Assembly (NCBI GenBank): GCA_029246085.1
Contig: JAQWOB010000023.1
Location: 1-54,541 of the forward strand
Direction of reading: 5' to 3'
DNA: 54,541 nt
Source of the DNA: Gammaproteobacteria bacterium
GTDB lineage: Bacteria > Pseudomonadota > Gammaproteobacteria > GCA-002705445 > GCA-002716945
How positions within the stretch are numbered: position 1 is the first letter of the stretch; each line of letters begins with the position of its first letter. The notes under the pieces are model-generated. The model saw only the letters and a list, made by a program, of their open reading frames with translations, was not told the origin of the DNA and did no database searches. Below, one piece after another: positions 4,727 to 30,861 of this stretch. The translations under genes were made by a program, and so were the position numbers.

Positions 4727-5421
4727 AGAGTTATCCTGTCATCAAATACGAAACAATCGCCTTCCCACCTGCCTTTGCTTTTATTTTTGTTCAGGTAATT
4801 AATTATGCCGCCCTTGAGCTGAAAAACATTTTTAAAACCAAGATTAGTTAAGGCTACACTAGCTTTTTCACATCTTATTCCACCAGTGCAAAATATTGCA
4901 ATATCTTTTTCTTTATCTATGTCTTCTATTGTTTTAAGTGATTTTTCTATATCACTGAAATTCAAAAGATTAAGGCTTTTTGAATTTTTGAAAGTCCCCA
5001 TTAGGTATTCAAATCTATTTCGCATATCAATTACAAGGGTCTCTTGTTCTAGCAGTACATCCCAATCCTTAGGCTCTAAAGATTTATTTTTAACAATTAC
5101 TTCTTCTGATATAGAAAAACCTGCCTTAATAATTTCATCTTTCACTTTCACTTTTAACTTAGTAAATACTTTTTTACTCACTTTTGATTCATTAAAATGT
5201 ATATCTCCTAAACCTAATAATTTCTTGATATATGTTTTGGCTGACTCAATATCTTGTATTGGTCCGCATATATTTGCATTAATACCTTCATTCGCAATTA
5301 GTACTGTCCCTAATATATCTAAGTTGTTTAGAAAATTAAAAATATTAAATCTAGTTCTTTCGGTTTCTGTTATTTGAGTAAATTTGTAGAAACTAATTAC
5401 TCTATCTATTTTTTTATGCAT
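4723..5421 (-). CDS. trhO: Rhodanese-related tRNA uridine hydroxylase (UPF0176/TrhO), short form
   Basis: Rhodanese active site CTGGIRCEKAS; N-terminal acylphosphatase-like domain. Confidence 0.85.
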   Translation of the reverse strand: MHKKIDRVISFYKFTQITETERTRFNIFNFLNNLDILGTVLIANEGINANICGPIQDIESAKTYIKKLLGLGDIHFNESKVSKKVFTKLKVKVKDEIIKAGFSISEEVIVKNKSLEPKDWDVLLEQETLVIDMRNRFEYLMGTFKNSKSLNLLNFSDIEKSLKTIEDIDKEKDIAIFCTGGIRCEKASVALTNLGFKNVFQLKGGIINYLNKNKSKGRWEGDCFVFDDRITL

Positions 5422-6074
5422 AAAGTCATTCCGTCATAAATCGATATAAGGCAATGATCAACTCTTTCATCCTTAGCTATGAAATTATTTAACAATTTTA
5501 TAGATTTAGTGCTAGAAGAGTTATCATTTTCATCTAATACTTTTCCTTTCCAGATTGTGTTATCTATAATAATTATTCCGCCCGATCTAATTAATTTTAA
5601 AGATTTTTCATAATAATCTAAATAATTACTTTTGTCAGCATCTATAAATACGAAATCAAATGTATTTTCAAGATTACTAGAAATAAAATTATCCAAGGTA
5701 TCTTTAGCATTCCCTAGTAAAAGCTCTATCTTATTATTAAGTTTTAGTTTATCCCAATATTTTTCTGCAATGTGAGTAAACTCTTTAGATTTATCTAGGG
5801 CAAATAGCTTTCCATTTTTTACCATGCCTTCTGCTATACAAATAGAGCTATACCCTGTAAATACACCTATTTCAATACATTTTGTAAACCCACCTAACGT
5901 ACAAATCATTTTAATTAATGCTCCTTGTGCTGCACCAATTTGCATTATAGAGATATCGCCAAGTCCAGATGTCTCATCACGTAGTTCTTTCAAGACAGGA
6001 GATTCTTTATAGCCAACTAAATCTATATATGACCTTAATTTATTTGGATCTAATTGAGTATCTTTATGCTTCAT
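5406..6074 (-). CDS. SAM-dependent O-methyltransferase (family 3)
   Basis: CIEIGVFTGYSSICIAEG, FIDADKSNYLDYYE, GGIIIIDNTIWKGKV. Confidence 0.9.
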   Translation of the reverse strand: MKHKDTQLDPNKLRSYIDLVGYKESPVLKELRDETSGLGDISIMQIGAAQGALIKMICTLGGFTKCIEIGVFTGYSSICIAEGMVKNGKLFALDKSKEFTHIAEKYWDKLKLNNKIELLLGNAKDTLDNFISSNLENTFDFVFIDADKSNYLDYYEKSLKLIRSGGIIIIDNTIWKGKVLDENDNSSSTKSIKLLNNFIAKDERVDHCLISIYDGMTLCIKK

Positions 6075-6659
6075 CTATTGTTTAATTGCTTCAAACTCTA
6101 TTATCAAATCTATTTGATCGCCAACAAGATTTTTTTTAACAGCATAATTCATGCCAAAGTCTGATCTATTAAAGCTAGCTGTTGCAGATACACCCATCAC
6201 AATTGGTTTAGTGAAACCAAAGGGATATTTCTCAATTTTATTAATAACAGCATTTAGAATAATTTTTTTTGATATACCTAATAATGTTAATTCTCCAGAA
6301 ACTTTATTAGGGTTTTTATTTAAATCATTATTAGCTGCTTTAAAAGTCATTATTGGAAAACTTTTTACATTAAGAAAGTCAGGACTTTTTAAGTGTGAAT
6401 CTCTTTTTTCATGATTGGTAAATACGCTAGATGTATCAATAATTATTTCTACATTTGAGAGAATATTTTTATCTTTATCATAGGAGAATGAACCACTGAC
6501 TTTTTTAAACATTCCAAGTGTTTTTGCATAGCCAGCATGCTCAACTAGAAATCCTAAACTAAAGTGAGATTCATCAATAACATAAGCATCATCTTTAGCA
6601 ATAACTAATTGAGTAAAAAATATACTTACGATGATAATTAATACCTTATATGTTCTCAT
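6075..6659 (-). CDS. YceI-like periplasmic lipocalin-fold protein
   Basis: Signal peptide MRTYKVLIIIVSIFFTQLVIA; YVIDESHFSLGFLVEHAG..HLKSPDFLNVKSFPIMTF. Confidence 0.9.
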   Translation of the reverse strand: MRTYKVLIIIVSIFFTQLVIAKDDAYVIDESHFSLGFLVEHAGYAKTLGMFKKVSGSFSYDKDKNILSNVEIIIDTSSVFTNHEKRDSHLKSPDFLNVKSFPIMTFKAANNDLNKNPNKVSGELTLLGISKKIILNAVINKIEKYPFGFTKPIVMGVSATASFNRSDFGMNYAVKKNLVGDQIDLIIEFEAIKQ

Positions 6660-7374
6660 GCTTTTCCCTCTTATATAACCAAAGTATATCCTTTGCGAAA
6701 GAAAAAGTAATGACAAATAATGATATCAATACTAAATAACTTAATGATATATCTTTAATATATTGGCTATGACAAATTATTAATAAAAATGTTGATAGGG
6801 CGCAGCTAATTTTCCTGTAATAACTTTCTGGAAGATCATACTTCATCCATTTACATTTATTCATGGATATTAAAAATAAATATCTATAGGTAGGGATTAA
6901 AAATACTATTATAGATACATCTTTATTCAGATATAAAGAGATAGATAGTATTAATATTAATAGAGTATCAGCATCTTGATCAAATATTTCTCCAAAACTA
7001 TTTTGTTCATTAAATCTTCTTGCTATATACCCATCAACCCCATCCAAGCATAAAGCTAAAAAAGCTATCAAGGCAAAGTAGCTATTATGGTAAAAATTTT
7101 TTAAAATATCTTGGTCTGAAAATGCATTTATAGATATAGATAGAAGAATTATTGATATTATTACCCTTAAATATGTCACCTCAGAAGCATATGTAAATTT
7201 ATTTTCCTTAAAATGGTTAAATATATAAAATATAAGAGTTGAAATAATTAAAAATAATATAGTATTTTGTAGTACTATTAATAGTGTTAGGTCTTTGTAT
7301 AAAATAGCACCAAGCAATATTATTAAGGCTAAATATGCTCTCGAGATAGTTTTTAGTATAAAGAAATTAATCAT
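6646..7374 (-). CDS. CDP-alcohol phosphatidyltransferase family protein
   Basis: DG-VDGYIARRFNEQNSFGEIFDQDAD matches the CDP-alcohol phosphotransferase motif; multi-TM. Confidence 0.88.
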   Translation of the reverse strand: MINFFILKTISRAYLALIILLGAILYKDLTLLIVLQNTILFLIISTLIFYIFNHFKENKFTYASEVTYLRVIISIILLSISINAFSDQDILKNFYHNSYFALIAFLALCLDGVDGYIARRFNEQNSFGEIFDQDADTLLILILSISLYLNKDVSIIVFLIPTYRYLFLISMNKCKWMKYDLPESYYRKISCALSTFLLIICHSQYIKDISLSYLVLISLFVITFSFAKDILWLYKREKHENI

Positions 7375-7394
7375 AATTAATATTTAAGTGTAGT

Positions 7395-8378
7395 ATGAAA
7401 AAAATAAACGCACAATCATTCTGGATTAAGAAAAAAAATAGTAGTTATATAAAAAGCCATACTATTGATTCACCAAAGGAAAACGAGATTTTAATTCAAA
7501 CAGTATATAGTGGAATCAGCTATGGAACAGAAAAAATTGTTTATACCGGAGCTGTTCCTGACAGTCAAAAAGAATTAATGAAGTGCCCATATCAAGAGGG
7601 AAAATTCGGCTCAGATGTTAAATATGGGTATATGAATATAGGTAAAGTAATAGAAGGTTCATCTAAGTTTAAAGGAAAATATGTATATACATTGTACCCT
7701 CATCAAACACATTATGTATTAAATGAATCTGAGGTAACTCTAATTTCAGAATCAATTCCACTAAAAAGGTGTTTATTGACAGCAAACATGGAGACTGCAG
7801 TAAATGGTATGTGGGATACGTTGCCGTCTTGTGGTGATAAAATATTAGTCATAGGTTCTGGAGTAGTTGGATTTTTAATGGCCTACTTACTGAAATCCAT
7901 ACCTGGTTGTGAAATATTACTGGTTGATAGTGATACAAAAAAAAGTAAACTTTCTAAAATATTTAATATTAATTTTAAAACCCAGATACCTAAAAACTAT
8001 AAGGCAAATATTATTTATGAGTGTTCTGGAAATGCTGATATTATAAATAGCCTAAGCAAGCATGTTAAAGATGAGGCCACTATTTGTATATTGAGTTGGT
8101 ATGGAGATAATGTTTCCAGAGTTAAATTTGGTGAAGAATTCCTTTCAAAAAGGATTAAGATTATTTTTTCTCAAGTATCAAAAGTTTCCCATAATAGAAG
8201 CAAATACTGGAATAATGTCCAAAGAAGAGAGTTAGCAATTAGTATGTTAAATGATGAGAGATTAGATCATCTAGTAGAAAACAAAATGATAAATTTTAAT
8301 AAGCTGCCAAAATTTTTCTCTGAAATGATAAAAGGACAGAAATTTTTTTGTAAAGTAGTAAGTTATGGAGATAAATAA
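7395..8378 (+). CDS. MDR-superfamily zinc-less dehydrogenase, BchC-like
   Basis: YSGISYGTEK..CPYQEGKFGSDVKYGYMNIGKV; Rossmann ILVIGSGVVGFLMAYLL; canonical Zn-ligand Cys not evident. Confidence 0.75.
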   Translation: MKKINAQSFWIKKKNSSYIKSHTIDSPKENEILIQTVYSGISYGTEKIVYTGAVPDSQKELMKCPYQEGKFGSDVKYGYMNIGKVIEGSSKFKGKYVYTLYPHQTHYVLNESEVTLISESIPLKRCLLTANMETAVNGMWDTLPSCGDKILVIGSGVVGFLMAYLLKSIPGCEILLVDSDTKKSKLSKIFNINFKTQIPKNYKANIIYECSGNADIINSLSKHVKDEATICILSWYGDNVSRVKFGEEFLSKRIKIIFSQVSKVSHNRSKYWNNVQRRELAISMLNDERLDHLVENKMINFNKLPKFFSEMIKGQKFFCKVVSYGDK

Positions 8379-8380
8379 CT

Positions 8381-8779
8381 ATGTATGAAGTAACTGTAAG
8401 AGATAATTTATTTATAGCTCATAGCTTAAAAGATGATTTTTTTGGGCCCGCTAAAAACCTCCATGGCGCAACTTATGTAATAGATTTAGTGATTAGAAGT
8501 AATCGAATAACAGATAAAAATGTTGTAATAGATATTGGGCTTGCGTCAAAATTACTTAATAATTGTATCAAGGCTTATAATTATAAAAATCTTGATGATA
8601 TTGATTTATTCTCAGGGATAATAACAACTACAGAATTTATGGCAAAACAATTAACTATGGACTTTATAAGCCAATTAAAAAAAGAAAAATTTGATATTTC
8701 ACAGTTATATTCAATTAAGATGATTTTAAATGAGTCACATGTTGCATCAGCATCTTATGAACAAAAAATTAATGAATGA
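8381..8779 (+). CDS. Divergent 6-pyruvoyl-tetrahydropterin synthase/QueD-fold protein
   Basis: FIAHSL..AKNLHGATYVIDL..VIDIGLASKLLNN..YNYKNLDD..TTTEFMAKQL..LNESHVASASY; PTPS-like layout with altered catalytic residues. Confidence 0.75.
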   Translation: MYEVTVRDNLFIAHSLKDDFFGPAKNLHGATYVIDLVIRSNRITDKNVVIDIGLASKLLNNCIKAYNYKNLDDIDLFSGIITTTEFMAKQLTMDFISQLKKEKFDISQLYSIKMILNESHVASASYEQKINE

Positions 8780-9774
8780 GAAAAATATATTTTATTTATC
8801 CTAAATTCGGCAGTACTATTACCGGTGGAACATTATATGATATTCAATTGTGCAAGTATTTAAAAAAAATATTTATTTATCACTCTGGCATAGTAGTCAA
8901 ACATGATATTTCTAGTATTGAGCTTTTTACAAAATTAAAGAAAATACCAAAAGAGTCCATTATAATAGTAGATGGCTATCTGGCTAACAGAATCAAATAT
9001 ATTATAAAAAAATTTGGCAATATTAGTTTACTAGTACATCATCCATGCTCATTAGAAGATCCCTCTAAAAGATCATCTAATCTTAAATTATATTTTAATG
9101 AAAAAATAGCTTTTACATATGCAAAATCAATAACAACTGTAAGCAAATATATGAAATTAAAAATTAGTAAGTATTTAAATAAGAATTCAAAGATACATGT
9201 AGTATATCCAGGTATCAGAGATTGTTTTTTTAATTATAATACCGCTACTAATTCTAAAAACCTTATATCAATTGGTAATATAATTCCAAGGAAAGGACAT
9301 GAGTGGCTGATAAAGTCATTGAGTAAACTAAAATTTGATTGGCATTTAAATATTATAGGAGATTATAGTATTGATAAGGATTATTACCAAAGACTAGACC
9401 TTTTGGTTAAGAGTTATAGACTGGAAGATAAAATAACATTTTTAGGTTCAGTGGAAACTGAGACTATGCTTGATTATTTAAAAAAATCAAAGTTATTCAT
9501 ACTTGCGACACATTATGAAGGCTTTGGCATGGCATTACTGGAGTCTTCAATTTCTGGAGTTAAAGTTATTACTACAGATTTGCCAGTATTAAGGGAAGTA
9601 TTGAAAAGCAGAGATGTTGATTTTGTCGAAGAAAATAATATTCAATCATTAGCTGAAACCATCGAGTATAATTTCAATAATTATACTTCTAAAAAAGTAT
9701 CTTCTAGCATTGGGAAGTATGGCTGGAAGAGAGCAGCAAGAAATTTTAAAATGGTGTTATATGGAACAAGGTAA
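8776..9774 (+). CDS. Family 4 glycosyltransferase
   Basis: ISIGNIIPRKGHEWLIKSL..FILATHYEGFGMALLESSISGVKVITTDLPVLREV; ATGA overlap with the upstream gene. Confidence 0.88.
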   Translation: MRKIYFIYPKFGSTITGGTLYDIQLCKYLKKIFIYHSGIVVKHDISSIELFTKLKKIPKESIIIVDGYLANRIKYIIKKFGNISLLVHHPCSLEDPSKRSSNLKLYFNEKIAFTYAKSITTVSKYMKLKISKYLNKNSKIHVVYPGIRDCFFNYNTATNSKNLISIGNIIPRKGHEWLIKSLSKLKFDWHLNIIGDYSIDKDYYQRLDLLVKSYRLEDKITFLGSVETETMLDYLKKSKLFILATHYEGFGMALLESSISGVKVITTDLPVLREVLKSRDVDFVEENNIQSLAETIEYNFNNYTSKKVSSSIGKYGWKRAARNFKMVLYGTR

Positions 9775-10633
9775 ATTTTCATTATCGTGGATTAAAGCAC
9801 GAGAACAATATGATTTAAAATATAGAAGTAATTTGTTAAAAGAACAGTATAAAAAAGACAGGTCTTCCTTTAATCGAATCATTGACCTAGGCTCTGGAAA
9901 TGGATCATTTTTAAGATACTGTCATTGCAAGAAAATAATTTTCAAGGAAATGCTTCTCATAGATTATGACTCTAAGCTTTTAAGAGATTTTTATGCATCA
10001 ACTTATAGTTATCTAAATGGAAAAGACTATAATATTTTAAAAGAATCTCCGACAAAGTATAAGTTAAAAAAAATAGATACAATCAAAACTAAAAATATTC
10101 AATTAATGAATGCTGATATTTTAAAATCATTAAATATTATTAATAATTATGATTTAATTAGTTTGTCAGCAATGTCAGATATACTTCCAACATTATTTAT
10201 TAAGAAACTTTTAGATAAAGTAGGTAAAAATAAAATAATATATTTTTCTATATGTTTTGATGGGAGAATTAAATGGGCTTCTAGTCATAAGTATGATAAA
10301 TATATTTTAACGATGTTTAATAAAAATCAGGAAACTAATAAGAGTTCTGGATATGTGGTTGGCGCAAAAAGCATTGAACTTATAAGAGAGTGTAGTATGA
10401 AGAAAAAATATAATTTTCAGATTGAAGACTCTTCTTGGGAATTAAAATCTTATGATGAAAATTCCAAATGTTTTCAAAAAATGTATTTAGATACAATATG
10501 TAAACCATTAAAAAAAGATGATATCACAAATAAAGATATGCTGAGTGAATGGCGGAAGGTAAAATTGAAAGATATTGTAACTGGTAAATCAAAAATTATT
10601 GTAGGCCATAAAGATATTTTAATATTAACATAA
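9761..10633 (+). CDS. Class I SAM-dependent methyltransferase
   Basis: RIIDLGSGNGSFLRYC..LMNADILKSL; start at internal ATG, overlaps GT4 by 14 nt. Confidence 0.75.
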   Translation: MEQGKFSLSWIKAREQYDLKYRSNLLKEQYKKDRSSFNRIIDLGSGNGSFLRYCHCKKIIFKEMLLIDYDSKLLRDFYASTYSYLNGKDYNILKESPTKYKLKKIDTIKTKNIQLMNADILKSLNIINNYDLISLSAMSDILPTLFIKKLLDKVGKNKIIYFSICFDGRIKWASSHKYDKYILTMFNKNQETNKSSGYVVGAKSIELIRECSMKKKYNFQIEDSSWELKSYDENSKCFQKMYLDTICKPLKKDDITNKDMLSEWRKVKLKDIVTGKSKIIVGHKDILILT

Positions 10634-11526
10634 TGAATATCAAAGATTCTTTAAAGTATATTCTATCTATTTTAATAATTTATTATATTATTGAGCATTA
10701 TGGAATCAATATATCTAATATGCTTTCCATCATAGACATACGGTATATTTTATTAATTATGCTCATAAGTATTATACAGCATTTTTTATCAGCATATAGA
10801 TGGATGTATATTTCTAAAATTACTAATCTGGATATTAGTTTTAGAAATTCTATCCAATTTTATTATATATCTAGTTTTATGAATAATATTTTGCCAGGTG
10901 GAATTATGGGAGATATGTTTCGCATTTATCATACTACAGAAAATAAAATGGAAATTCTAAAAATAGGAAAATCCGTACAAGCTGTTATTTTTGAGAGATT
11001 ATCTGGTCAAATTATGCTGCTTGCTTTTTTCATAGTTTCTCTAACTTTTTATTTTCTTATAAATAATAAATACGAAGCTTTCCTTTACTTATTTTTCCCT
11101 TCATTATTAATATTTTTTATATTTAAATTATTTCTGAATAAGAAAATTAAAAAAATGCTAAATGATAAGAAAATTGGTCATAATATTTATGCAGTTTTTT
11201 CCGGGGAGGTGTTTTGGAGGCATTTAATACTATCGTTTTTCGTTGTGTGTTCATATGTACTTATCTATGTAATATCTGCAGTTTCATTAGGGCTAGATAT
11301 TGATTATCTTGCGTTTATGGTTTTTTCTCCAATAATCTTATTTTCTATGACTTTACCAATCAGTATTGGAGGTTGGGGGATAAGAGAATTAACCGCTCTT
11401 TTACTATCTTTGCTTTTAGGGCTTTCAGCGTCTTCAAGTATTAGTGTATCCATCATATATGGGATATTAAATTTAATATGCTCTTTACCAGGACTTTATT
11501 TTTTTTTACAAATTAAATCAAAATAA
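10633..11526 (+). CDS. Lysylphosphatidylglycerol synthase TM/UPF0104 flippase-like membrane protein
   Basis: Multi-TM; NNILPGGIMGDMFRIY and ISIGGWGIRELTALLLSLLLG signatures; TAATG coupling with upstream gene. Confidence 0.85.
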   Translation: MNIKDSLKYILSILIIYYIIEHYGINISNMLSIIDIRYILLIMLISIIQHFLSAYRWMYISKITNLDISFRNSIQFYYISSFMNNILPGGIMGDMFRIYHTTENKMEILKIGKSVQAVIFERLSGQIMLLAFFIVSLTFYFLINNKYEAFLYLFFPSLLIFFIFKLFLNKKIKKMLNDKKIGHNIYAVFSGEVFWRHLILSFFVVCSYVLIYVISAVSLGLDIDYLAFMVFSPIILFSMTLPISIGGWGIRELTALLLSLLLGLSASSSISVSIIYGILNLICSLPGLYFFLQIKSK

Positions 11527-12387
11527 ATCAATATCACATAAAATATCACTACCCATCTTCATATAAGATATTTTGTGTTCACAAACTTCTTTTAATGACT
11601 TTTGTTTTGGAATTATAAAGCTACTAATTCCTTCCCCTAATATTATTGGACTGATACATAAATGTAATTTATCAAGTAAATTTTTTTCATAAAATTTTGA
11701 AATAGTTTTTCCGCCACCTTCTATGAAAACTATTCTTTTATTTAGCTTAGTTAGCAATGATAGTATATCTTTTTCATCAAACTGATTATTTATTAGAGGT
11801 AATTGAAATATATTTTGATCTCTTGATTTTAATTTATCATGAATAATTTTATAACCATTATCGTCTTTATGATTAAATACATGATATTTTTTACTAAGCT
11901 TGTTGTTTTTATCTAAAATAATCCTCATAGGATTTTCACCTTTTACGAGTCTTGTTGTAAGCATAGGATTATCTGATTTAACAGTATTAGACCCTACAAT
12001 AATTATATCTGATATTGCTCTTAACATATGTATATGGATAAGATTTTCTTGAGAGCTTATATATTTTGACTCACTTGATTGTGTTGCTATGAATCCATCC
12101 AAGGTTTGCGCTAAATGACCTATCAGAAAAGTCTTTTTATTATTAAATATTATAGGAAGATATAGCTTGAAGAGATTATTTGTATATTCATCTATATCAA
12201 AATTATTATCAATCACCTCTTGTTTCTCTATACTATATTTATACTGATATTTTTTCTTATTTAATACTTTTTCTATAGTTACCTGAGATATGTCATCAAA
12301 ATTATCTAGCTTGAAGTATTTAGCTGCTAAAATTAGTGACCATGAAGATTTTTTTGTTATACTGAATTTATTAGATTTATTGTTCAT
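11518..12387 (-). CDS. RibD C-terminal (pyrimidine reductase/DHFR-like) domain protein
   Basis: LAQTLDGFIATQSSESKYISS..VGSNTVKSDNPMLTTRLV..VFIEGGGKTISKFYEKNLLDKLHLCISPIILGEG. Confidence 0.85.
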   Translation of the reverse strand: MNNKSNKFSITKKSSWSLILAAKYFKLDNFDDISQVTIEKVLNKKKYQYKYSIEKQEVIDNNFDIDEYTNNLFKLYLPIIFNNKKTFLIGHLAQTLDGFIATQSSESKYISSQENLIHIHMLRAISDIIIVGSNTVKSDNPMLTTRLVKGENPMRIILDKNNKLSKKYHVFNHKDDNGYKIIHDKLKSRDQNIFQLPLINNQFDEKDILSLLTKLNKRIVFIEGGGKTISKFYEKNLLDKLHLCISPIILGEGISSFIIPKQKSLKEVCEHKISYMKMGSDILCDIDLF

Positions 12388-12393
12388 AAGGTT

Positions 12394-12630
12394 ATGGGTT
12401 ATTTAAAAAGTACTATTATCAATATAATACATGGAGCACTCATTATTGTTCCCGTTATAATATTTATTCATTTTACATACTATTATTTTTCTAATTATAG
12501 CCCGATTCCGTCTATATATTATTTTTATGCTTCAATGGAATTAGGGCCTTTATATTTAACTATAAACTTTTATATTATAGGCTTACTAGGAAGATTTTTT
12601 AGTCAAAACCTTAGTTTTAATAATTTATAA
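12394..12630 (+). CDS. 78-aa predicted membrane protein, unknown
   Basis: Two hydrophobic segments, divergent from the RibD-like gene with a 6-bp gap. Confidence 0.55.
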   Translation: MGYLKSTIINIIHGALIIVPVIIFIHFTYYYFSNYSPIPSIYYFYASMELGPLYLTINFYIIGLLGRFFSQNLSFNNL

Positions 12631-13080
12631 TATAGTGGGGTTAGGAGCATCTCCATATACCTCATCTGGATCAAATACTTTTTCTTTTTCAGTAAAGGTT
12701 AGTTTCGCTTTTTTACCATCATATTTTATTTCACGATAAAAACATGAAAAATAACCGACATGACAGCTTGCATTTCCAGCTACAGTCACTTTAATCCATA
12801 CACAATCTTGGTCATCATCAATAAATATGCTATCAACCTTTTGTACAAAACCACTAGTGGCACCTTTATGCCATATGCATTTTCTACTTCTACTATAATA
12901 ATGAGCTTCTCTTTTCTCAATTGTAAGCTTAAGAGCCTCTGCATTCATGAATGCATGCATTAATAGGACACCTGTTTTTGTATCAGTAGTAACAACTGGG
13001 ATAAACCCATCAGAATTAAACTTTGGACTAAGTTCATTTCCTTCTTCTACTTCTTTAATTGATATTCTATCTTTAAACAT
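12625..13080 (-). CDS. hisI: Phosphoribosyl-AMP cyclohydrolase
   Basis: AFMNAEALKLTIEKREAHYYSRSRKCIWHKGATSGFVQKV..DDQDCVWIKV. Confidence 0.93.
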   Translation of the reverse strand: MFKDRISIKEVEEGNELSPKFNSDGFIPVVTTDTKTGVLLMHAFMNAEALKLTIEKREAHYYSRSRKCIWHKGATSGFVQKVDSIFIDDDQDCVWIKVTVAGNASCHVGYFSCFYREIKYDGKKAKLTFTEKEKVFDPDEVYGDAPNPTIL

Positions 13081-13082
13081 AA

Positions 13083-13262
13083 CTACTTTTTCTTAAACAT
13101 TGATTTCTGTATAAAATTCTTACCGCAATAATAACATTCTACAGTTCCATCTTCACTATTAACTTTTAAGAATATTTGAGGGTGGGAACCACTTATATCG
13201 TCACCAGAGCAACTTATTATGTCTATATCATCTTCTATTATTTTGATATTAGATACTCTCAT
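13083..13262 (-). CDS. CHCC-type zinc-finger small protein (59 aa)
   Basis: Hand translation: MRVSNIKIIEDDIDIISCSGDDISGSHPQIFLKVNSEDGTVECYYCGKNFIQKSMFKKK; C-x8-H-x14-C-x2-C. Confidence 0.8.
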   Translation of the reverse strand: MRVSNIKIIEDDIDIISCSGDDISGSHPQIFLKVNSEDGTVECYYCGKNFIQKSMFKKK

Positions 13263-13266
13263 ATAT

Positions 13267-13926
13267 CTATAAAGAACTATAATCTCCTAGTTTCATCAAT
13301 CTTTCTCTAAACCTTTCCTTGATTTCTTCTGTCAAATATTTTAAGTCTACCGCTTTCTTCATTTTATCAATATTATTTATATCTTGAAATAATATCTCAG
13401 AAATTTCATATATAGACATACTGTCACTTTCTTTTCTTATATATTCAACCTCATCACCTCTAGATATGCTTCCTGTTTCTAATACTCTTAAATAAGATCC
13501 TAATAGACCACTTTGAGAAAACTTTTTTGTAAAATCTCTACTATTCATTTTTATTCCAATTTTATAACAGGGAATTCTTGGTTGAGAGATTTGGAAGAGA
13601 CAATTACCAATTTTTAGTTCATCACCAATATATATTTCTTTTTCATCAAAATCATCAATTGTAAGATTTTCTCCAACTAGTCCAAATTCACTATAATCTT
13701 GATTCATTTCTTTTGACCAAGTCTGGTAATGCTTATGTGAGTATGCATATAGAGCTTTGTCATACCCTCCATGAACTTTCATATCTGCTTGCCTATCACC
13801 AAGCAATCCAACCTCAGTAACCTCAATGGAGCCTTCTATTGGTTTTTTATATATACTAGTGGTAAGCTCTTTGCCGTTAAACATGACTTTTTTGGGCTCA
13901 GAAATATTTATAGATAAAATTTTCAT
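13267..13926 (-). CDS. MOSC domain protein (YiiM-like)
   Basis: VGLLGDRQADMKVHGGYDKALYAYSHKHYQTW; GENLTIDDF; PRIPCYKIG. Confidence 0.9.
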   Translation of the reverse strand: MKILSINISEPKKVMFNGKELTTSIYKKPIEGSIEVTEVGLLGDRQADMKVHGGYDKALYAYSHKHYQTWSKEMNQDYSEFGLVGENLTIDDFDEKEIYIGDELKIGNCLFQISQPRIPCYKIGIKMNSRDFTKKFSQSGLLGSYLRVLETGSISRGDEVEYIRKESDSMSIYEISEILFQDINNIDKMKKAVDLKYLTEEIKERFRERLMKLGDYSSL

Positions 13927-13978
13927 ATTTTAGATAAAGTAATTATATAATCTCATTATAAAAAAAGGATAACTTAAG

Positions 13979-14878
13979 ATGACTTCATATACAACGAATT
14001 GGATATTATTATTACTGTTATCGGCTATTTGGGGAGGCGCTTTTACTCTTAATAAGTTTGCGCTAGAAGCTTATAGTCCAGAAGTCTTAGTAACAGGACG
14101 CCTACTTATTGCTAGTATAGTGCTTCTGGGTTTTGTCTTAACAGTTTTTAAAAAGATTAATATCGATTTATCAAACTGGCGTTATTACTTTTTTATGAGT
14201 ATTGTGGGAATTGTAGCTCCTTTTCTATTAATTTCATATGGACAAATTGGAATTGATAGTTCTTTGGCTGGTATATTAATGTCAACAATGCCTATCTCTA
14301 CATTAATATTGTCTCATTTTTTTTTGAATGATGAAAATATGACAAAGAAAAAACTTATTGGTTTTTTAGTTGCATTTACTGGAATTATTATTTTAATTAT
14401 GCCGGACAAAAATATTATTGAAAATAATATAATTGATGGTATTTATTCTGAATTGATGGTCATAAGTGGAGCAATACTTTATTCATTTGCTGCAGTGTAT
14501 GGAAAGAGATTTAAAATTACAAATCCTCTGAATGCATCAACAGGAGTGATATTGTATTCTGCAGCTATTATGAGCATATATATAATGTTAAATATTGACC
14601 TAGCCCCACACTCATATGGCGATTATGAACATATTTTGGCAATAGTTATATTAGGAGTTTTTTGTACAGCTATTGCAACGATTATATATTTTCAAATATT
14701 ACAATCTTCAGGGGCAACCTTTATATCTATAATGAATTATCTTATCCCTGTCTGGGCTATCTTGTTCGGTGTTATCTTTTTTAATGAAGATGTGTCATGG
14801 AATTATCTTGTAGGCTTAATTATTGTGATATTAGGTATACAAATAAGTCAAATTAAAAGAAAGCCTAATAAAATCTAA
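13979..14878 (+). CDS. EamA/DMT-family transporter
   Basis: 10-TM-type sequence, two EamA repeats (LLLSAIWGGAFTLNKFAL..YLIPVWAILFGVIFFNE). Confidence 0.9.
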   Translation: MTSYTTNWILLLLLSAIWGGAFTLNKFALEAYSPEVLVTGRLLIASIVLLGFVLTVFKKINIDLSNWRYYFFMSIVGIVAPFLLISYGQIGIDSSLAGILMSTMPISTLILSHFFLNDENMTKKKLIGFLVAFTGIIILIMPDKNIIENNIIDGIYSELMVISGAILYSFAAVYGKRFKITNPLNASTGVILYSAAIMSIYIMLNIDLAPHSYGDYEHILAIVILGVFCTAIATIIYFQILQSSGATFISIMNYLIPVWAILFGVIFFNEDVSWNYLVGLIIVILGIQISQIKRKPNKI

Positions 14879-14943: not shown

Positions 14944-15258
14944 ATGTTATATGATGACAAGCTTGCAATGGCTAAAAAATTAAAAATAGAATCTGCAACA
15001 TTTCAAAAGATACTTGATCATTTGAGAAAGAACCCTGATGTTCAAAATATTGACATGATGAATTTGGCAAACTTCTGCCGTAATTGTATATCTAAATGGT
15101 ATATGTCAGAAGCTGAGAAATTAGGAGATAAATTGACTTATGATGAAGCTCGAGAATTAGTTTATGGAATGCCTTATTCTGAATATAAGAGTAAGCATCA
15201 AAAAGAGGCAACTAAAGAACAACTTGAGAAGTTTAATGAAGGTAAAAAAAAGAACTAG
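14944..15258 (+). CDS. DUF1244 family protein
   Basis: HLRKNPDVQNIDMMNLANFCRNCISKWY..EARELVYGMPYSEYKSKHQ. Confidence 0.88.
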   Translation: MLYDDKLAMAKKLKIESATFQKILDHLRKNPDVQNIDMMNLANFCRNCISKWYMSEAEKLGDKLTYDEARELVYGMPYSEYKSKHQKEATKEQLEKFNEGKKKN

Positions 15259-16003
15259 ACTTCAATTATCAAATGATGATCTTTTGAGATATAACAAACA
15301 TATTCTTTTAGAAGAAATTCAGACTGATGGGCTTGAGATCTTAAAACAAAAACATGTGGCGATAATAGGCCTTGGGGGTCTTGGTTGTCCAGTTGCTCAG
15401 TATTTATCAACTTCAGGGCTTGGTAAAATTACATTGATAGATGATGACGTAGTGGATGAAACAAATCTTCAGAGACAAATACTTTATACTTCTGAAGACC
15501 TTGGCCTATATAAGGCTGACGTAGCATGCAAAAGATTGAAGATATTAAATCCTGATATAAATATTGAAGGTTACAATATACGATTCACAAATGATTCAGT
15601 TAGTCTTATGAAAGATGTAGACATAATTATTGATGCTACTGATAATTTTAAATCAAGATCACTGATTAATAAGATATCTTTATTTTTAAAAAAACCCTTA
15701 GTGATGGGTGCTGCCATAAAGATGCAGGGACAAGTTGCAGTTTTCCGAAATGATTTATCTGATATGCCTTGCTATAATTGTCTTTATGACGATATAGAGG
15801 ACGAAATCAACTCATGTATAGACCTCGGAGTTTTATCTACATTAACTGGGATGATAGGTTCCCTTCAGGCAACTGAGGTTATAAAGACTTTGATAGGCTT
15901 TGGTGAATCACTAGAAAGCAAATTATTATTAGTAGATTTAAAGTATATGGGTTTTAGAACTGTTAAAATAATTAAAGATAATAAATGTAAAGTTTGCAAT
16001 TAA
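15236..16003 (+). CDS. moeB: Molybdopterin synthase adenylyltransferase MoeB/ThiF-like
   Basis: RYNKHILLEEIQTDGLEILKQKHVAIIGLGGLGCPVAQYLSTSGLG; start trimmed to internal ATG. Confidence 0.9.
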   Translation: MKVKKRTRLQLSNDDLLRYNKHILLEEIQTDGLEILKQKHVAIIGLGGLGCPVAQYLSTSGLGKITLIDDDVVDETNLQRQILYTSEDLGLYKADVACKRLKILNPDINIEGYNIRFTNDSVSLMKDVDIIIDATDNFKSRSLINKISLFLKKPLVMGAAIKMQGQVAVFRNDLSDMPCYNCLYDDIEDEINSCIDLGVLSTLTGMIGSLQATEVIKTLIGFGESLESKLLLVDLKYMGFRTVKIIKDNKCKVCN

Positions 16004-16004
16004 A

Positions 16005-17015
16005 ATGATCAAAGATAAACTAAATAGACAATTTGAGTATCTAAGAATTTCAGTCACTGATAAATGTAATTTTAGATGTACATATTGTATGCCTAAGGAG
16101 ATATTTGATAGTAAGCATCAGTTTCTGAAAAAAAATGAATTACTGACATATGAGGAAATCATAGAGGTTGCTAAAACTTTAAAACCATTTGGTTTAAAGA
16201 AAATTAGACTTACTGGTGGAGAGCCGCTTCTAAGAAAAAATATTGAGTATTTGGTTGAAGGTTTGAAAAAAGATGCATTGATTGATAAGGTTATGATTAC
16301 TAGTAATGGGTCTTTATTAACTAAAGAAAAACTAATAGCCTTACAGAAAAGTGGGTTAGATTCAGTAACTATAAGTTTGGATGCTTCGTCTCAAAAAGTA
16401 GCGAATATAATGAATCCTGTTAATAATAACTATATTTTAGTATCAGAGGCTATAGATAATGTTATTAGTATATTTGATAGTGTTAAGGTAAATATGGTTG
16501 TTATAAAAGGAGTAAATGATAAAGAAATTATCCCTATGGTAGAAAAATTTTTAGGCAAAAGCGTTGAGTTAAGGTTTATTGAATATATGGATGTAGGAGA
16601 ATCTAATAATTGGTCTCTGAGTAATGTATTTTCTTCAAAAGAAACCAAAGATTTAGTTGGGAAATATTTTAGTTTAAAAAAACTACCTGATTTAATAGAT
16701 TCTACATCTGAGAAATGGTCTATAGATAATTATGCATTGAATATTGCTTTTATTTCGTCTATATCAAAACCTTTTTGTTCTGAATGTAACCGTGGCAGGC
16801 TATCAGCAAATGGTAATTTTTATACATGTTTGTTTTCAGATAAGCCTTATAATTTTTCTAGTTACTTTAGAAATGAAAAAAACAACTTATCTTTTAATGA
16901 TTATTTTATTAAAGTTTGGTCTAATAGAAATGACCAGTATTCTCAATTGAGAGTTATTAATAAGATTGATAAAAGTAAAAAAAATAAAGTAGAAATGTCA
17001 TATATTGGTGGATAA
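16005..17015 (+). CDS. moaA: GTP 3',8-cyclase MoaA
   Basis: CNFRCTYCMP, LTGGEPLLR, FCSECNRGRLSANGNFYTCLFS, C-terminal GG. Confidence 0.97.
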   Translation: MIKDKLNRQFEYLRISVTDKCNFRCTYCMPKEIFDSKHQFLKKNELLTYEEIIEVAKTLKPFGLKKIRLTGGEPLLRKNIEYLVEGLKKDALIDKVMITSNGSLLTKEKLIALQKSGLDSVTISLDASSQKVANIMNPVNNNYILVSEAIDNVISIFDSVKVNMVVIKGVNDKEIIPMVEKFLGKSVELRFIEYMDVGESNNWSLSNVFSSKETKDLVGKYFSLKKLPDLIDSTSEKWSIDNYALNIAFISSISKPFCSECNRGRLSANGNFYTCLFSDKPYNFSSYFRNEKNNLSFNDYFIKVWSNRNDQYSQLRVINKIDKSKKNKVEMSYIGG

Positions 17016-27769: not shown

Positions 27770-28588
27770 TTAGTCTTTTATTTGGTGAATTTGAGCATAT
27801 GCTGAATGATTATGAATAGATTCAAAATTTTCAGACTCGACAGTATACTCCCTAACTCTATCGTCCTTAGTAAAATGACCTGCAATATCTCTAACCATGT
27901 CTTCAACAAACTTAGGATTATCATAAGCTAATTCAGTTACATGTTTTTCATCAGGCCTCTTTAATAATGCATATAACTCAGAAGACGCCTCTTTCTCTAC
28001 TACATCTATTATTTCTTCAATCCAGATAAAATCTTTTATGCTTACAGTAACCGTTACATGTGATCGCTGATTATGAGCACCATACGCTGATATTTTTTTT
28101 GAGCAAGGACATAGGCTAGTCACAGGGACCAATACTTTTACTTTTAAGCTAGATACTCCTTTCTCAATCTCACCAATAAACGTAACAGTATAGTCTAGTA
28201 AACTTTTAACTTTAGAGGCTGGAGCAGTTTTATTTATAAAATAAGGAAACTGCATCTCAACATGACCAGATTCTGCTTCTAAGAGAACTAGCATTTCTGT
28301 TATCATTGTTTTAAACGTATCTACAGTTATATGGTCTTCATGGTTATTGAGTATATGTACAAACCTAGACATATGAGTCCCTTTTAAATTATGAGGCAAA
28401 TTTACATACATATTAAAATTTGCAACTGTTGTTTGTTCTTTCCCTGATCTCTGTTTAATAACCATTGGGTGAAGAATATCTTTTATACCAACTTTATTAA
28501 TTGGTAAATTCCTCGTATCCTCAAGACCTTGAGTATCAGGTAAGCTCGATTTGTTTAATTCTTTGATAGATTTTTTATTAGTAGACAT
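27770..28588 (-). CDS. folE2: GTP cyclohydrolase FolE2 (type IB)
   Basis: [35 protein letters not shown]. Confidence 0.95.
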
Positions 28589-28591
28589 TAT

Positions 28592-28960
28592 TTATCCTGT
28601 AAAAGTTACCGCTGATTTTTCTGTTTCCCATAGCTTAATTGATTTAACTTCTATTTGCTTATCATTCATTATTACAGATAATTCTTTATGAATATACTGG
28701 GCAATATTTTCAGCCGTTGGATTTATTTCTTTAAATGGCTTTAAATCATTCAGAAAACGATGATCTAACTGATCAACGACACTTTTTGTCATGTTTCTGA
28801 TTTCCTTAAAATCTATTACCATTCCGATATTATCTAGTTTATTTCCACAAACTTCAACTTCAACTTTCCAATTATGTCCATGCATTCTTTTACAAGCCCC
28901 TTCATGGCCATTCAGTACATGCGCAGATGAAAACTCAACAAATGTGGTTAGAGTATAAAT
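28592..28960 (-). CDS. queD: 6-carboxytetrahydropterin synthase QueD with non-canonical (ATT or ATC) start
   Basis: Extended translation IYTLTTFVEFSSAHVLNGHEGACKRMHGHNWKVEVEV..LDHRFLND..NPTAENIA..LWETEKSA; track ORF (from 28885) lacks the first Zn-His strand. Confidence 0.85.
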   Translation of the reverse strand: MYTLTTFVEFSSAHVLNGHEGACKRMHGHNWKVEVEVCGNKLDNIGMVIDFKEIRNMTKSVVDQLDHRFLNDLKPFKEINPTAENIAQYIHKELSVIMNDKQIEVKSIKLWETEKSAVTFTG

Positions 28961-28977
28961 ATCGATTTCTCCAGTTT

Positions 28978-30861
28978 TTACTTTTTACTACTTATTTTTA
29001 CCATATTATCCACATGGTCATTAGTAATCTTTTCTATACCAAGTGCGTCAAGACCTAATTCTGATAATATTTCATCTTGGCTTCCATGAGGTATCATTTT
29101 ATCTGGAACACCTATATTTACCAGGTTATTTTTTAACAAATATTTAGTCATAACCTCATTAACAGCAGTTCCAGCACCGCCTAGTGTGACATTGTCTTCT
29201 ACGGTAAATATATAATCATGTGTATTACAGATATCTATGATCATATCTTCATCGATAGGTTTAACAAATCTCATGTCAACCAGAGTTGCACCATTTTTCT
29301 TAGCTACTTTCTTAACAGTGTTCAATAACGTTCCAAATACAAGATAGGCTATTTTGTTTCCTTTCTCAATTATTCTAGCTTTCCCAATCTCTATAGTTGC
29401 ATGATCTAAGCTAATATCTTCTCCTTGACTATATCCTCTTGGATATCTGACTGCAGCTAATCCTTTATGCTTTTGACCAGTTGATAACATTTTCCACATC
29501 TCTAATTCATCAGATGGAGTCATAAGAACTATTTTAGGAAGAATTCTTAAGAAGGAAATATCATATATACCTTGATGAGTCTCTCCGTCAGCTCCAACTA
29601 TACCAGCCCTATCAATTGCCAATAGAATATCAAGGTCTTGTACAACAATATCATGTATTAATTGGTCATAAGCTCTTTGAAGAAAGGTCGAGTATATTGC
29701 TATAATAGGTTTTAAGCCCCCACAAGACATGCCTCCAGCTAACGTAATCGCATGTTGTTCCGCAATCCCCACATCAAAATATCTTTCTGGATATTTTTTC
29801 TCAAAATCAACAAGCCCAGAACCTTCTCTCATTGCAGGTGTAATGACTACAAGCCTAGTATCTATATTTGCAGCTTGATCTACCCACCTACTAAAAATCT
29901 CAGTATATGTTAATTTATTATTAATTTTTTTTATTTTTGGCTTGCCAGTTTTGATATCAAACGGTGTTACTCCATGGTATGAAATTGGGTTCTGTTCAGC
30001 TAACTTATATCCCTTCCCCTTTTTTGTAATTACATGAAGAATTCTGGGGCCAGATTGATCTTTTAGATTTTCTAATACATCAATTAAACCATTAACATCA
30101 TGACCATCTGTCGGCCCATAATATTTAAATCCTAGTTCTTCAAATAATAAACCCGGAGTTATAAGACCTTTTGCTTGATTTTCTACTTTTTTTGCTATCT
30201 CTTCTATTGTTTTAACTTTACTCAAAACTTTCTTGCCACTTTCTTTGAAGGATGAAAATGTTTTGCCAGTTAATATTTTAGTGAGGTATTTATGAACTGC
30301 TCCAACATTTGGGGAAATAGACATTTCATTATCATTTAGTATCACTAATATATTGGATTTAATACCACCAGCATGGCCAAGTGCTTCAAATGCCATACCT
30401 GCAGTCAAGCCTCCGTCACCAATTATTGCGATAATTTTATTATTTTTTTTATTTAGCTTTGAAGCAATTTCATATCCTATTGCTGCACTAATAGAAGTAC
30501 TTGAATGACCAGCACCAAAGGAATCATATTCGCTTTCATCTCTTTTCAGAAATCCTGATATACCATCTTTTTTTCTAAGAGAAGGCATTAATTTTTTTCT
30601 CCCAGTCAATATTTTATGCGGATAGCATTGATGCCCAATATCCCATACCAAAATATCTCTCGGTGTATCATATACATAATGAAGGGCTATCGTAATATCC
30701 ACTGTTCCAAGTCCAGCAGCTAAATGCCCGCCAGTTTGAGAAACTGATTCAATAATAAATTCCCTTAGTTCTTCTGATAGGGATGATATTTCACTTTTAG
30801 TAAGACCTTTTAAATCAGCCGGACTATTAATCATATCTAATATTTTATAATTTTCGCTCAC
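28978..30861 (-). CDS. dxs: 1-deoxy-D-xylulose-5-phosphate synthase
   Basis: VWDIGHQCYPHKILTGR; GDGGLTAGMAFEALGHAG; YYGPTDGHDV; FDVGIAEQHAITLAGGM. Confidence 0.97.
   Translation of the reverse strand: MSENYKILDMINSPADLKGLTKSEISSLSEELREFIIESVSQTGGHLAAGLGTVDITIALHYVYDTPRDILVWDIGHQCYPHKILTGRKKLMPSLRKKDGISGFLKRDESEYDSFGAGHSSTSISAAIGYEIASKLNKKNNKIIAIIGDGGLTAGMAFEALGHAGGIKSNILVILNDNEMSISPNVGAVHKYLTKILTGKTFSSFKESGKKVLSKVKTIEEIAKKVENQAKGLITPGLLFEELGFKYYGPTDGHDVNGLIDVLENLKDQSGPRILHVITKKGKGYKLAEQNPISYHGVTPFDIKTGKPKIKKINNKLTYTEIFSRWVDQAANIDTRLVVITPAMREGSGLVDFEKKYPERYFDVGIAEQHAITLAGGMSCGGLKPIIAIYSTFLQRAYDQLIHDIVVQDLDILLAIDRAGIVGADGETHQGIYDISFLRILPKIVLMTPSDELEMWKMLSTGQKHKGLAAVRYPRGYSQGEDISLDHATIEIGKARIIEKGNKIAYLVFGTLLNTVKKVAKKNGATLVDMRFVKPIDEDMIIDICNTHDYIFTVEDNVTLGGAGTAVNEVMTKYLLKNNLVNIGVPDKMIPHGSQDEILSELGLDALGIEKITNDHVDNMVKISSKK

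Follow-up and report, generated by a model that had tools for sequence, protein, structure and literature searches.

Gene organization of the locus

The window analyzed here is the whole of contig JAQWOB010000023.1 (54,541 nucleotides, positions 1 to 54,541 of the forward strand) of GenBank assembly GCA_029246085.1 from a gammaproteobacterium, and corresponds to contig C9 of a host assembly of 960 kb in 41 contigs that is 91% complete. Positions 6,075 to 12,630 carry a compact gene block, hereafter called the cluster, which centers on a dehydrogenase (DH), a protein of the PTPS-IV subfamily and a GT4 glycosyltransferase, and for which a biosynthetic role is considered below. The following features are found.

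6075-6659, minus strand: YceI-family protein with a signal peptide (PF04264, 129 bits; 53-95% conserved in the host's family)
6646-7374, minus strand: gene A, CDP-alcohol phosphatidyltransferase family (CDPOH; PF01066, CDP-OH_P_transf, 62 bits, above the curated cut-off)
7395-8378, plus strand: gene B, MDR-family dehydrogenase, the best marker of the cluster (104 loci)
8381-8779, plus strand: gene C, T-fold protein assigned to the PTPS-IV subfamily (PF01242, 60 bits, above the curated cut-off)
8776-9774, plus strand: gene D, GT4 glycosyltransferase (PF00534, Glycos_transf_1, 102 bits, above the curated cut-off)
9761-10633, plus strand: gene E, predicted class I S-adenosylmethionine (SAM)-dependent methyltransferase (MT) of an unnamed family (from its predicted structure)
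10633-11526, plus strand: gene F, LPG_synthase_TM or flippase-like membrane protein (FLIP; PF03706, 129 bits; TIGR00374, 49 bits; both above the cut-off)
11518-12387, minus strand: gene G, stand-alone RibD_C reductase (PF01872, 118 bits against a cut-off of 24)
12394-12630, plus strand: 78-aa membrane-protein open reading frame, divergent from gene G, a family-specific accessory (52-96% identity in all other family loci tested)

Genes A to G lie exactly where the original prediction, made from the letters of the window, had placed them, and the close coupling that it described is present at every junction. A gap of 2 nt separates the dehydrogenase and PTPS genes, the PTPS and GT4 genes share an ATGA overlap (8776-8779), the GT4 and methyltransferase genes overlap by 14 nt (methyltransferase ATG at 9761, GT4 stop ending at 9774), and the methyltransferase and flippase-like genes are joined by TAATG (10631-10635). 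The flanking minus-strand CDP-alcohol gene and the convergent RibD_C gene are also oriented as described, the latter overlapping the flippase-like gene by 9 nt (11518-11526). That list of seven was correct but overlooked the YceI gene, which abuts the CDP-alcohol gene, and the 78-aa frame, which has no Pfam match; these are probably two further members of the block, because both are conserved throughout the host's family. An Rfam scan of positions 5000-14000 gave no matches, and consensus scans of the locus for promoters and terminators gave hits at chance level only.

The dehydrogenase was found in 18 of 25 genomes of the host's family searched (the window's own counted), with relatives 97 to 47% identical, and the block YceI-CDPOH-DH-PTPS-GT4-MT-FLIP-RibD_C was intact and in unchanged order in the family genomes whose context was retrieved. 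Among the dehydrogenase matches listed, the closest named records were uncultured marine Gammaproteobacteria.

The cluster recurs in four bacterial phyla

A one-genome-per-species scan with a dehydrogenase profile yielded at least 568 confirmed relatives, and 104 loci were analyzed. Their genes were labelled with hidden Markov models built on the neighborhoods and checked on representatives with Pfam and NCBIfam, and all counts over the 104 loci are lower bounds, as contig ends cut some of them. PTPS was present in 98 loci, GT4 in 97, RibD_C in 88, the methyltransferase in 84, the CDP-alcohol gene in 74 and the flippase-like gene in 51. The dehydrogenase and PTPS genes were adjacent and co-directional wherever both occurred (98/98), and so were the PTPS and GT4 genes (97/97). 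Fuller clusters also held GTP cyclohydrolase II (GCHII, gene label GCH2; 45 loci), a creatininase (36), YceI (35), an FkbM methyltransferase (30), a sulfatase-fold protein (19), mdoH (26) and mdoG (15). With < and > marking orientation, the typical proteobacterial order is <YceI <CDPOH >DH >PTPS >GT4 >MT >FLIP <RibD_C >GCH2 <creatininase <FkbM <MdoH <MdoG, of which the clusters of Acidobacteriota and Gemmatimonadota are close variants. Order and orientation are preserved across Gamma-, Beta- and Alphaproteobacteria, Acidobacteriota, Gemmatimonadota and Actinomycetota. Because they are kept over proteobacterial classes and other phyla, the grouping of the seven genes is not due to chance.

An independent seed, a PTPS-IV profile, was run against 397 near-complete Pseudomonadota genomes sampled and matched 32 of them (~8%), every match being strong (E 7e-49 or better). 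The dehydrogenase was next door in all 30 PTPS-seeded loci examined, and GT4 was found in 28 of these; the dehydrogenase itself was detected in 21 of 369 class members. Copies of the cluster also reside on plasmids of Streptomyces, Microbacterium, Agrobacterium, Rhizobium, Methylosinus, Palleronia and Thiodictyon. The gene set of the Microbacterium plasmid matches genes A to G exactly in families and order, except that the CDP-alcohol gene is inverted. Between the seven core families, pairwise distances are correlated (r=0.84-0.93, without species-tree correction), pointing to co-inheritance. Phage carriage of PTPS-IV was looked for with no match. A cluster widespread across four bacterial phyla and horizontally spread is the best explanation of these data. 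Recurrence in unrelated genomes, in fuller versions with a GTP cyclohydrolase, is what the original prediction had hoped to see in a neighborhood search.

Family membership and active-site residues of the cluster proteins

The PTPS subfamilies are distinguished by published motif definitions (PMC5041015, PMC5445326). The window protein carries FGPAK...HGATY, and AKNLHGA stands where QueD has CxxxHGH; among the cluster homologues AHS, FGPAQ and HGATY are conserved, with FGPAQ in most copies. PTPS-I/QueD was ruled out by the missing CxxxHGH and a score of 32.8 bits against the QueD model (cut-off 89), and PTPS-II and PTPS-III by the presence of neither CxxxxxHGH nor ExxHGH. As judged from its FGPAQ signature, gene C belongs to the PTPS-IV subfamily (COG0720). 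The neighborhood that marks this subfamily, PF00925 with PF01872, is found over the 104 loci; the window has the RibD_C gene and, as already seen in the original prediction, no GTP cyclohydrolase within its cluster.

The PTPS and RibD folds claimed earlier are borne out, the former by a solved homologue, SCO6650 (PDB 3d7j, E=2.5e-29), which is the closest solved structure to the window protein. Of the cluster PTPS homologues, 97% have Ala where QueD has its catalytic Cys and 92% have Ala in place of the third zinc His, while all keep Glu118. The authors of the SCO6650 structure reportedly found neither zinc nor a triad, and saw no PTPS activity. Since the catalytic Cys and one zinc His are replaced, standard PTPS chemistry is not expected. 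A subtype in three loci (L023, L064, L066) has the motif GAEN...HSHHY / HAHQY with the HxH zinc pair present, and distant PTPS matches (26-32%) lie on a Haloarcula plasmid.

The RibD_C protein has no deaminase domain, has about 80 N-terminal residues of its own, and keeps the conserved residues. For a cluster homologue, the closest relatives of known structure are the 2,5-diamino-6-ribosylamino-pyrimidinone phosphate reductases 6p8c and 2azn. Because the window protein scores 89 bits against TIGR01508, the archaeal-type reductase, below the equivalog cut-off of 186, its sequence suggests an enzyme that works like this reductase rather than one that is it. No deaminase family was found among the recurrent neighbors of the cluster loci. 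GCH2 adjoins RibD_C in 36 of 43 loci with both. Its three zinc Cys and the equivalent of Escherichia coli Tyr105 are invariant (45/45), while its N-terminal half has the DHBP-synthase fold and has lost the DDEDRENEGD motif, so that it appears to be an intact GCHII half fused to a dead RibB half. Two-domain examples are found at 15161-16327 of locus L145 and 15441-16541 of locus L123. That GCH2 stops at the formylamino product, with creatininase acting as the deformylase, was rejected for proteobacteria on the retained Tyr105. The Streptomyces copy (L147) has Met at this site, so the formylamino-product idea may still hold there; Met replacing Tyr in GCHII is said to yield that product.

The dehydrogenase lacks the classical catalytic-zinc Cys motif. 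It scores 58 bits against the BchC model TIGR01202 (equivalog cut-off 291), which rules out a 3-hydroxyethyl bacteriochlorophyllide dehydrogenase and reduces the earlier label 'BchC-like' to a distant similarity; the other assignments of the original prediction that have family models (CDP-alcohol, PTPS, GT4, LPG_synthase_TM and RibD_C) all exceed the Pfam cut-offs. Gene E has no Pfam or NCBIfam match. Its AlphaFold2 model (pLDDT 96) gave Foldseek matches to SAM methyltransferases with E down to 4.5e-9, and the predicted fold, which agrees with the earlier methyltransferase call, is that of a class I SAM methyltransferase.

The CDP-alcohol protein of the window carries the family motif Dx2DGx2AR...Gx3Dx3D at D111, D114, G115, R119, G128, D132 and D136; in 73 cluster homologues R119 is conserved in 99% and the other six residues are invariant. 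Its best named model is PgsA, at 41 bits against a cut-off of 109. YceI is a periplasmic lipid-binding family. Of the 33 loci with both a YceI and a CDP-alcohol gene, 31 have the two within 1 kb of each other. Cytochrome b561 genes lie near or next to the cluster in six loci (L149, L150, L154, L117, L087, L139), and elsewhere YceI takes the flanking place. Further, mdoH/mdoG are immediate neighbors of the cluster in alpha-, beta- and gammaproteobacteria and Gemmatimonadota (L077, L085, L094, L107, L110, L114, L119, L144, L151).

A proposed branch off the riboflavin pathway

Tentatively, and with somewhat less than even confidence, we propose that the cluster core is a biosynthetic branch that leaves the riboflavin pathway at its first intermediate and has a probably lipid-linked product. 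The original prediction had considered FolE2 as a possible substrate source, but fuller clusters carry the riboflavin-type GTP cyclohydrolase II and not GTP cyclohydrolase I; since the enzyme is of type II, the likely precursor is 2,5-diamino-6-ribosylamino-pyrimidinone phosphate and not dihydroneopterin triphosphate. With the gene set, families and active-site residues observed as above, family knowledge would suggest the first two steps. GCHII, in the cluster in many genomes, would make 2,5-diamino-6-ribosylamino-4(3H)-pyrimidinone 5'-phosphate, and the stand-alone RibD_C would reduce its ribose to ribitol with no deamination beforehand, which would preserve a 2-amino, pterin-like edge.

The later steps, above all the lipid link, are suggested by cluster membership and gene order. 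The zinc-triad-deficient PTPS-IV protein may bind the 2-amino-4-oxo ring through its invariant Glu and, together with the MDR dehydrogenase, may alter the ring or side chain in a non-canonical reaction. The product would then be decorated by GT4 and the methyltransferase(s), the CDP-alcohol transferase would attach a lipid phosphate, the LPG_synthase_TM protein would help transfer across the membrane, and handling in the periplasm would fall to YceI or the sulfatase-fold protein. The CDP-alcohol enzyme, the flippase-like protein and YceI together point to a lipid-linked, exported form, and the linkage to mdoG/mdoH and the sulfatase-fold gene suggests transfer to periplasmic glucans in some species. 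From the pathway as first predicted, the single recurring biosynthetic system is thus retained, whereas a lipid-linked, exported, glycosylated and methylated product stays conditional. That this product is a membrane lipid class not described before, with a reduced, glycosylated and methylated 2-amino-pyrimidinone or pterin made from GTP as head group, is a bolder claim that we consider doubtful. If true, such a lipid would occur in bacteria of at least four phyla and be retained in marine genomes of about 1 Mb, and its head group might pass on to periplasmic glucans in some species.

Several observations weigh against the proposed branch pathway, and its main weakness for this genome is the source of the precursor. 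No intact GTP cyclohydrolase II was found in the host genome or its family, including relatives 99 and 100% complete, and neither GCH III nor creatininase was found in the host genome. The host's only PF00925 protein is of the RibBX type, lies in a riboflavin operon and lacks all three zinc Cys in its GCHII half; all family members with a match have the same zinc-Cys-less RibBX, among them two genomes that are 99-100% complete. RibD, RibE and RibH-type genes are present in the host genome (contig C17, 5500-11000), so that step 1 of riboflavin synthesis appears as a hole, with neither an intact GTP cyclohydrolase II nor III found, and the proposed precursor is left without a known source in the host. 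Either another enzyme supplies the pyrimidine, or it is taken up, or the cluster uses another precursor here. The FolE2 gene at about 28 kb, named earlier as a possible source, is an unlikely supplier, since it pairs with a true CxxxHGH QueD; the two (27770-28978, minus strand) are more likely ordinary queuosine/folate equipment separate from the PTPS-IV gene. Further, the CDP-alcohol gene is absent from ~30% and the flippase-like gene from ~50% of the loci (partly truncated contigs), which suggests that lipid attachment may be dispensable or that its genes may lie elsewhere. No RibD_C gene was seen in the stretch searched around the Streptomyces copy, and no product or enzyme of the cluster is characterized in the literature found.

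The same uneven gene content bears on an alternative that we regard as unlikely, namely a soluble glycosylated, methylated pterin or pyrimidine (a cofactor, pigment or signal), with the CDP-alcohol and flippase-like proteins used for export or in an unrelated envelope role. The DH-PTPS-GT4 core is far more constant than CDPOH (74/104) and FLIP (51/104), and the Palleronia cluster has neither gene nearby. However, of the 74 loci that have both a CDP-alcohol and a dehydrogenase gene, 67 have them within 1 kb of each other, and the CDP-alcohol gene co-evolves with the core (r about 0.9).

A lipid-linked head group might instead be made and flipped, after which the sulfatase-fold (OpgB/EptA-like) enzyme would transfer it to osmoregulated periplasmic glucan. 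Consistently, mdoH adjoins the cluster in 26 of 104 loci and 8 of 30 PTPS-seeded loci, in several arrangements and classes; mdoG and sulfatase-fold genes were counted in 15 and 19 loci, and Methylosinus plasmid pOB3b1 has mdoH beside the dehydrogenase gene. Such decoration as the purpose of the cluster is nevertheless rather improbable: the host genome lacks MdoG, to our knowledge the actinobacteria carrying the cluster do not make periplasmic glucans of this kind, and it would be at most one use of the product.

An F420-like or other deazaflavin or redox cofactor is still less probable. PTPS-IV has been tied to archaeal F420 synthesis in a 2016 paper, as unpublished work (PMC5041015), GTP cyclohydrolase, creatininase and RibD_C together look like archaeal ArfA/B/C, the Streptomyces copy (L147) has a gene for an F420-dependent oxidoreductase in its vicinity, and some cluster copies have cytochrome b561. 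However, no CofG/CofH-type or other F420 genes are among the recurrent neighbors, and a separate deformylase should be unnecessary where GCH2 keeps its deformylating Tyr, as in proteobacteria. Finally, ordinary queuosine, folate or riboflavin genes sitting together by accident would fit the family names (QueD-like, RibD-like, GCHII), but this is very improbable, as canonical QueD/FolE2 (28 kb) and RibD/RibE/RibBX genes stand apart from the cluster in the host, the cluster PTPS lacks CxxxHGH, its RibD_C lacks the deaminase half, and the block is conserved across phyla.

Comparison with known systems

In the literature searched, which covered few subscription journals, no account was found of the cluster as a whole or of its product. 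Its genes carry misleading names, such as QueD, zinc alcohol dehydrogenase and RibA. Occurrence in ~8% of the sampled Pseudomonadota and conservation across phyla imply that the product should be of general use to bacteria. Halomonas, Methylosinus, Variovorax and Streptomyces are among its carriers and offer natural laboratory hosts.

Lipids of the phosphatidylinositol-mannoside type likewise involve a CDP-alcohol phosphotransferase, a GT4 enzyme and membrane translocation, whereas the head group proposed here is a GTP-derived heterocycle; the likeness is pure analogy. RibBX, a degenerate RibBA, and the cluster GCH2 both join a RibB and a GCHII domain of which one is dead, but GCH2 is the mirror image, with the RibB half dead and the GCHII half intact. 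The archaeal/fungal riboflavin and F420 order also draws on a cyclohydrolase (GCH), a deformylase of the creatininase type (ArfB) and a stand-alone RibD_C reductase (ArfC). In contrast, the cluster has GCHII with the deformylating Tyr and not GCH III, and its PTPS, dehydrogenase, GT4, methyltransferase and lipid genes have no counterpart there.

SCO6650, the solved homologue mentioned above, is from Streptomyces coelicolor. In the Streptomyces plasmid copy, CDPOH, DH, PTPS, GT4, MT, creatininase and GCHII genes stand together, RibD_C being missing as noted. SCO6655, a GTP cyclohydrolase II whose published activity reportedly gives the formylamino product, presumably has Met at the Tyr105 position, as does the GCHII of this plasmid copy.

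The nearest precedent is cluster-node 62 of the 2017 AGeNNT neighborhood study, in which 561 PTPS-IV sequences were grouped with PF00925 and PF01872 (PMC5445326). This node shares with the cluster the FGPAQ signature and both Pfam neighbors. The AGeNNT paper gives the association only, with no function, labels PF00925 'GTP cyclohydrolase I/FolE2', and names in its text no dehydrogenase, GT4, methyltransferase, CDP-alcohol, flippase, creatininase, YceI or glucan genes. Thus, the link of PTPS-IV to PF00925/PF01872 was already known, and what is newly put together here is the whole cluster with its putative pterin/riboflavin-type branch, which gives the PTPS-IV subfamily and the solved SCO6650 a concrete candidate pathway.

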